NCBI GenBank assembly: GCA_018303425.1
Contig: JAGVYF010000002.1
Span: 1 to 45,360 of the forward strand
DNA: 45,360 bases
Direction: 5' to 3'
DNA from: Candidatus Woesearchaeota archaeon
GTDB lineage: Archaea; Nanobdellota; Nanobdellia; Woesearchaeales; JAGVYF01
Of this stretch, positions 15,996-41,195 are shown one piece after another. Made by a program: the position numbers and the translations under genes. The stretch's first letter is position 1, and every line of letters begins with the position of its first letter. The notes under the pieces were generated by a model, which worked only from the letters and a program-made list of their open reading frames with translations, was not told where the DNA came from and did not search any database.

Positions 15996-16014
15996 ATGCG
16001 AGGAACAGATATTC
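15996..16014 (-). repeat. Partial copy of the tRNA-Leu 3' end
   Basis: On the minus strand this reads like the last 20 or so nucleotides of the tRNA-Leu at 16128-16383 (GAATA-CTG-TCCTCGCAT pattern with two or three changes), about 130 nt downstream of it. No matching 5' part is present, so it is a fragment and not a second gene. Short tRNA 3' repeats can mark an old integration site or a duplication. The flanking gap 15731-15995 is AT-rich, with short TGTGACTA-type repeats near 15860-15890, and otherwise holds nothing I can identify. Confidence 0.5.
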
Positions 16015-16084
16015 TCCATAGCTTTTTTAGAAAAACATAGGAAAAACGAAAGACGTGCGTTCGCTTTGCTCACTTGGTCTTTAC

Positions 16085-16127: not shown

Positions 16128-16383
16128 TGCGAGGAGCAGGGTATTCGCAACTTGTAGACCATCAGAAGTGGGCTATACTGTGTCTTGCCCGCTGATTTTA
16201 GTCAAGCTTTTGCTTGGCAAAAAGGTTGTTTCGAACCTGCGTAGGCACTAAGCCAATAGGTTTCTTCAAAATCATCGCCCTTTCGGACTCTGCTCACCTT
16301 ACCTAAGCCTATCCCGTTTAGTCTAAAACTTTATTTCAGAGTATTGAAACGCCAGTTTCATTTGACCGCTCCGGCATCCCCGC
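16128..16383 (-). tRNA. tRNA-Leu(UAG) with three introns
   Basis: The acceptor strands GCGGGGA and TCCTCGC pair across 256 nt, with discriminator A and no encoded CCA. Removing three inserts leaves an 84-nt type II tRNA. The D arm is CCG...CGG with a GGTCAAA loop, the anticodon arm is ATAGG-CTTAGGA-CCTAT (anticodon UAG), the variable arm is GGC-TTAGT-GCC, and the T arm is GCAGG-TTCGAAC-CCTGC. The inserts are a 44-nt D-loop intron (contains a TGAAAC/GTTTCA hairpin), a 40-nt intron at canonical position 37/38, and an 88-nt T-loop intron near position 58/59 with a CAAC:GTTG helix at its ends. Exact splice points can shift by 1-3 nt because of A-runs. Confidence 0.88.
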
Positions 16384-16474
16384 ATTTTATTTACATAGAC
16401 ATGAACTGAGTTCATACCTAATATTATTAGCAAACTGAATGTGTTTAAAAAGATTGTGTTAAGACGGCGCTGTC

Positions 16475-20923: not shown

Positions 20924-21009
20924 GCCCCTGTAGCTTAGTCGTGGAGCAGTTGCCTCGTATGTCTATCAGAGACAGCAGCAGGTCGGGAGTTCAAATCTCC
21001 CCGGGGGCT
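20924..21009 (+). tRNA. tRNA-Thr(CGU) with 14-nt anticodon-loop intron
   Basis: The acceptor GCCCCTG pairs with CGGGGGC, with discriminator T and no encoded CCA. D arm GCT...AGC, anticodon arm GTTGC-CTCGTA/A-GCAGC, T arm GGGAG-TTCAAAT-CTCCC. A 14-nt insert at canonical position 37/38 (20960-20973) contains a GTCT/AGAC mini-hairpin. The mature length is 72 nt. The cytidylyltransferase gene starts 27 nt downstream, so the two may share a transcript. Confidence 0.92.
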
Positions 21010-33290: not shown

Positions 33291-33439
33291 GGGGCTATGG
33301 TCTAGTGGCTATGACATCTCGTTGACTTAGACAACTTCGTTGGCTAATAAAAACTGCGAAGCTGTTTTCAAATTCGAGAGGATCCCCGGTTCGAGAAGGA
33401 TATAGATAACACTAATTCATGAAAATCCGGGTAGCCCCA
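33291..33439 (+). tRNA. tRNA-Val(GAC) with two introns
   Basis: The acceptor GGGGCTA pairs with TAGCCCC, with discriminator A and no encoded CCA. D arm GTC...GAC, anticodon arm TCTCG-TTGAC/TT-CGAGA, T arm CCCGG-TTCGAAT-CCGGG, variable loop GGATC. Removing a 46-nt anticodon-loop intron (about 33328-33373) and a 30-nt T-loop intron (33395-33424, position 58/59) leaves a standard 73-nt tRNA. The first intron contains an AACTTCG/CGAAGCT-like pairing. Confidence 0.9.
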
Positions 33440-41065: not shown

Positions 41066-41195
41066 GGGGCTGTGGGGTAGCTTGGCTATCCTTCGAGGTT
41101 TGGGTCTAATGAGACATTTGTCAATGATAGCAAAAGACCTTGCGACCCCGGTTCGAAACACAAATTAATCTTGTGCGAATATCCGGGCAGCCCCA
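41066..41195 (+). tRNA. tRNA-Pro(UGG) with two introns
   Basis: The acceptor GGGGCTG pairs with CAGCCCC, with discriminator A followed by an encoded CCA (41196-41198), unlike the other tRNAs here. Anticodon arm CGAGG-TTTGGG/A-CCTTG (anticodon UGG), T arm CCCGG-TTCGAAT-CCGGG. A 32-nt intron lies at 37/38 (41105-41136), and a 24-nt T-loop intron lies near 58/59 (41157-41180) with a CACAA:TTGTG helix. The mature length is 74 nt. Confidence 0.92.

Follow-up and report, generated by a model that had tools for sequence, protein, structure and literature searches.

A woesearchaeal tRNA-Leu(UAG) gene with three introns, predicted to be spliced, and T-loop introns across its order

Multi-intron tRNA genes of archaea and the tRNA-Leu(UAG) locus

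Multi-intron tRNAs are described for the Thermoproteales, among them Pyrobaculum (Sugahara 2008 and Fujishima 2010, as cited in PMC8450103, PMC4033280 and PMC4090602). According to these papers, up to three introns with bulge-helix-bulge (BHB) motifs occur per tRNA, at positions that include 20/21 and 59/60, and similar introns in different tRNAs are read as a result of transposition (PMC4033280, PMC4090602). The order has 0.84 introns per tRNA gene, and Pyrobaculum calidifontis has 71 in 46 genes (PMC8450103). The initial annotation of the present locus had placed several introns per tRNA mainly in this order, which proved too narrow: multi-intron tRNAs are also reported for Thaumarchaeota (PMC8450103), and in the Asgard Atabeyarchaeia and Freyarchaeia 92–95% of the tRNA genes are interrupted, with many noncanonical and multiple introns (PMC11291895). 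Noncanonical tRNA introns in Woesearchaeota or other DPANN archaea were not found reported in the open-access papers searched.

The window analyzed here, 45,360 nt long, is a whole contig of a Candidatus Woesearchaeota genome (937 kb, 39 contigs, 96% complete). Its minus strand carries a tRNA-Leu(UAG) gene of four exons and three introns (Table 1), which read on the reverse complement gives a type II tRNA of 84 nt. The intron sizes and the mature length are exactly those given in the initial annotation, to which only the strand is added. That annotation also had all stems paired; every stem does pair, except for a purine-purine mismatch at D13-22, which recurs in the Leu tRNAs of relatives.

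Table 1. Coordinates of the tRNA-Leu(UAG) gene parts and of other interrupted tRNA genes in the window
Feature	Position	Strand	Details
tRNA-Leu(UAG) gene	16128..16383	minus	4 exons, 3 introns
Exon 1	16362..16383	minus	22 nt; acceptor 5' strand, D-stem 5' strand, D-loop to GGTCAA
D-loop intron	16318..16361	minus	44 nt; central helix GGTC/GACT, bulges AAA and AAA, inner helix TGAAAC/GTTTTA
Exon 2	16302..16317	minus	16 nt; D-stem 3' strand, anticodon stem 5' strand, anticodon TAG to position 37
Anticodon-loop intron (37/38)	16262..16301	minus	40 nt; central helix CTTA/GAAG, 3 of 4 pairs
Exon 3	16230..16261	minus	32 nt; anticodon stem 3' strand, 15-nt variable arm, T-stem 5' strand, T-loop TTCGAA
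T-loop intron (59/60)	16142..16229	minus	88 nt; central helix TTCG/CGAA, bulges AAA and TAC, inner helix CAAC/GTTG
Exon 4	16128..16141	minus	14 nt; last T-loop base, T-stem 3' strand, acceptor 3' strand, A73
tRNA-Thr(CGU)	20924..21009	plus	anticodon-loop intron 14 nt
tRNA-Val(GAC)	33291..33439	plus	anticodon-loop intron 46 nt, T-loop intron 30 nt; missed by ARAGORN and Rfam
tRNA-Pro(UGG)	41066..41195	plus	anticodon-loop intron 32 nt, T-loop intron 24 nt; missed by ARAGORN and Rfam

A tRNA search allowing noncanonical introns was run with an independently written scanner that requires acceptor, T, anticodon and D pairing, permits at most one intron per loop and received no Leu-specific input. 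It recovered the identical four-exon parse with a score of 17.3, the lowest among the accepted tRNAs, as the D13-22 mismatch and the penalties for three introns count against it. Three freely placed introns allow many cloverleaves, and a score of at least 17.3 was reached in one of 100 Markov-simulated windows (both strands, 9.07 Mb), that is, about 0.01 expected per window; an over-flexible parse of random sequence was considered. However, the spliced exons match 67–78 of the 84 positions of tRNA-Leu(UAG) in 18 related genomes, four of which have it intron-free (L040, L041, L201, L212), and homologous introns occur elsewhere in the genome. The exon homology excludes chance, whose probability we regard as negligible. 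ARAGORN gives no call for the unspliced gene, nor does Rfam, and it calls tRNA-Leu(tag) once all three introns are removed, in agreement with the gene's original identification. A plus-strand reading as some other structured RNA was rejected, Rfam being empty across the element; a queA match at 16386-16448 (18.6 bits vs. a cut-off of 52.6) is due to chance.

The gene could also be a decayed or non-functional copy, with the true tRNA-Leu(UAG) lying elsewhere or absent from the assembly. The incompleteness of a genome in 39 contigs would leave room for this, and part of the 3' exon is repeated in a short stretch downstream. Yet the stems pair apart from D13-22, where relatives share the mismatch, the exons are conserved, and the architecture recurs in other tRNAs of the genome. 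Moreover, CUA and CUG codons are in use (46 and 27, respectively, among the 7867 codons of the window), and another intact tRNA-Leu(UAG), which by the initial annotation would have spoken against the gene, was searched for and not found elsewhere in the 96%-complete genome. Decay thus seems very improbable. The three-intron tRNA-Leu(UAG) gene is real, very probably functional and of a known kind; that it is a functional single-copy woesearchaeal tRNA gene, with three BHB introns predicted to be spliced by EndA and the exons joined by RtcB, we hold with high confidence.

The downstream repeat (15997-16017, minus strand, about 110 nt from the gene) corresponds to the 3' end of tRNA-Leu(UAG) and reads TCCTCGCA, with a diverged T-stem strand and GAATA ahead of it; it is perhaps a relic of partial duplication.

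Splice motifs and the splicing endonuclease

The T-loop intron of tRNA-Leu(UAG) forms a full canonical BHB, composed of the T-stem, the 4-bp central helix, two 3-nt bulges and the inner helix. The D-loop intron has a complete central helix and departs from the strict canonical motif, since three unpaired D-loop bases (AGC) separate the D-stem from this helix; it is the only one of the three introns without an adjoining outer helix. Relaxed BHB recognition, which the initial annotation took to be implied by the gene as a whole, accordingly fits the D-loop intron and not the T-loop intron; the anticodon-loop intron pairs at three of four positions, and the sole EndA gene found lacks the broad-specificity loop of crenarchaeal enzymes.

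In the 45 T-loop introns compared, the central helix is nearly always TTC/GAA; the bases just ahead of the T-stem are mostly YGAA plus a 3-nt bulge, with YGAA pairing to T54-R57. Base R57 covaries with its partner (G-C 16, G-T 5, A-T 12, A-C 0; Fisher p = 2e-5 for the 45 introns, those of one family being not fully independent). The full G18-G19-N-C central helix is present in all eight Leu-type D-loop introns, with covariation between GGTC-GACY and GGCC-GGYY, and anticodon-loop introns pair with bases 32-35 at 3.48 of 4 positions vs. 2.64 with shuffled partners (0/2000 shuffles exceeded 2.95). The BHB central helix is thus supported at all three sites by pairing or covariation. As expected of archaeal tRNA introns spliced by EndA, BHB motifs, a normal tRNA on excision and genes for EndA and RtcB were all found.

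On these pairings, the precursor would fold so that each pair of splice sites consists of two 3-nt bulges flanking a 4-bp helix, formed by T54-T55-C56-R57 with intron YGAA in the T-loop, by G18-G19-N-C with complementary intron bases in the D-loop, and by tRNA bases 32-35 with the intron in the anticodon loop. By established knowledge, EndA cleaves each bulge behind its second base, which gives the predicted cleavage sites of the tRNA-Leu(UAG) introns; RtcB would then ligate the exons, and the predicted junctions read GGTCAA|ACGG, CTTAGG|ACCTAT and TTCGAA|CCCTGC.

Besides an RtcB gene, the genome has one PF01974 gene (L049:1255-1785), encoding an alpha-type EndA of 176 aa. The protein is closest to those of Candidatus Woesearchaeota (up to 72% identity), in line with the earlier description of the genome as DPANN-like. 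Where the aligned structures have their catalytic residues, it carries Tyr, His and Lys. The crenarchaea-specific loop with its conserved Lys (VEKPRG in A. pernix) is absent, leaving a gap of ~10 residues relative to 3p1z_B. In the loop region of the alignment there is also no insertion compared with the M. jannaschii enzyme, which bears on the ARMAN-type loop. Only (alpha-beta)2 and epsilon2 EndA are known to cut relaxed motifs efficiently (PMC6379350), which leaves two options, a hidden divergent beta subunit in this genome or another solution.

A hidden beta, giving an (alpha-beta)2 enzyme as in Nanoarchaeum equitans instead of an alpha homo-oligomer, concerns the enzyme and not the introns, and we give it nearly an even chance. 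N. equitans belongs to the same broad lineage; its catalytic subunit is the closest solved structure to EndA (3iey_A, E 6e-36), and the C-terminal Trp of EndA (IRW), a candidate for the Trp of an Arg/Trp bulge-binding pair, aligns with the Trp of the broad-specificity A. pernix and N. equitans enzymes. Against it, PF01974 points to a single clear gene in each genome: of 99 genomes searched in the order, 92 gave a match above the cut-off, about one gene apiece, and two full-length genes occur in only one of the 99 (G036, on C81 and C26). Of the endonuclease subunit types named in the initial annotation, one alpha-type gene was found; a PF01974 search for a second subunit in this genome found none, and a divergent beta would escape such a search. 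N. equitans has split as well as intron-containing tRNAs; the introns found here are in cis.

Introns across the tRNA set of the genome

Only nine tRNAs in the genome lie above the Rfam cut-off. The intron-aware scan yielded at least 33 tRNA genes for 19 amino acids with 50 introns, located in the anticodon loop (22), T-loop (22) and D-loop (6) of the 33 detected genes, 29 of which are interrupted. At least four tRNAs have three introns (Leu UAG, Leu UAA, Lys UUU and Arg UCG), so the single-gene picture of the initial annotation was incomplete. The catalogue, drawn from a family search, T-arm patterns and selected genome stretches, is not exhaustive, and no Trp tRNA was among the tRNAs from these sources. 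As intron-free tRNAs are visible to Rfam, the count of these few genes is unlikely to be too low, but that of the interrupted ones may be.

Most detected tRNA genes here are thus interrupted, often in a loop that is rarely so elsewhere, and ordinary tRNA finders miss them. Introns, not gene loss, account for much of the gap between nine and at least 33 tRNAs in this genome, which matters for how DPANN genomes are annotated and for claims that tRNAs are missing and a host is needed. The density of 1.5 introns per detected gene is comparable to that given for P. calidifontis. Unlike in the Thermoproteales, the lineage is DPANN, position 59/60 is interrupted as frequently as 37/38, and EndA lacks the crenarchaeal specificity loop; in interruption and multiplicity the set resembles that of the phylogenetically unrelated Atabeyarchaeia and Freyarchaeia. 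Three-intron tRNAs, these positions and transposition are already known from Thermoproteales, and intron-rich sets also from Asgard archaea. New, relative to the open-access papers searched, are the lineage, the prevalence of T-loop introns and an EndA that departs from the proposed loop rule.

Contig C6 carries a tRNA-Ile with anticodon UAU and two introns (L012/L053) instead of the usual archaeal CAU tRNA-Ile2; tRNA-Ile(UAU) is present in the relatives G001 and G002, too. Several tRNAs lie close together on this contig, and multi-intron Asp, Lys and nearby Tyr tRNAs do so on C22 (L100, L239), both possibly being tRNA clusters.

Intron families and their spread in the order

Over 75 nt, the Leu T-loop intron shares 84% identity (E 1e-15) with the intron in the anticodon loop of tRNA-His of the same genome, and the two diverge at the 3' end, as each site demands. 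T-loop introns of Gly(CCC) and Ser(GCU) match it more weakly, and through them introns of Gly(GCC), Ile(UAU) and Ala(GGC) join the family; a second, shorter family is common to Ala(UGC), Ile(GAU) and Phe. The natural reading of the Leu/His homology is that introns have been transposed among tRNAs. Because the D- and T-loop sites consist of bases invariant in nearly all tRNAs, an intron with a matching 3' end would be spliceable wherever it lands, and this would account both for T-loop introns matching canonical ones in frequency here and for the occurrence of related introns in different tRNAs and at different positions. Outside any recognised tRNA, 21 identical bases of the Leu/His family occur on another contig (near C33:14074-14094). 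This solo sequence (L224, C33:13600-14600) apparently shares hairpin layout with the family as well, and may be a free-standing RNA or else a dead copy of the intron.

Among the relatives, the genomes G001 and G002, of the same taxonomic family, have tRNA-Leu(UAG) without introns, yet T-loop introns in many other tRNAs. D-loop introns at the identical Leu site occur in other families (G036, G077, G095, G067, G087), as do T-loop introns in Leu tRNAs (G092, G057, G067); three introns were also found in Leu(UAG) of G010 and Leu(CAA) of G067. Among 102 genomes of the order, 69 matched the T-loop intron pattern (212 matches vs. 7 in the reversed control), as did 61 of 276 genomes of the other orders of the class (93 vs. 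14). Some of the matches are an intact T-arm followed by a chance match, and a lone match per genome is weak proof. The tRNA-Leu(UAG) gene is thus one case of a pattern running through the order.

A broader scenario, which we offer tentatively and consider rather doubtful in its entirety, would have order-wide mobile tRNA introns in Woesearchaeota, with the T-loop TTC as universal landing and splicing site, a 3' end adapting to the site (YGAA for the T-loop, a match to 32-35 for the anticodon loop) and a single-subunit EndA that has neither of the known specificity loops. If true, this would be another route to broad specificity. A DPANN order with common T-loop introns and an endonuclease at odds with the proposed rule, by which EndA specificity loops co-evolved with intron diversity, deserves attention and makes that rule testable.

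RNAalifold, applied to the anticodon introns of tRNA-Leu(UAG), gave no consensus structure other than the anticodon stem. A stretch GGUGUGAUGAG...RCRAUGA is conserved in these introns (16262-16301, and relatives such as L021, L026 and L043) across several families, and resembles box C or kink-turn bases.
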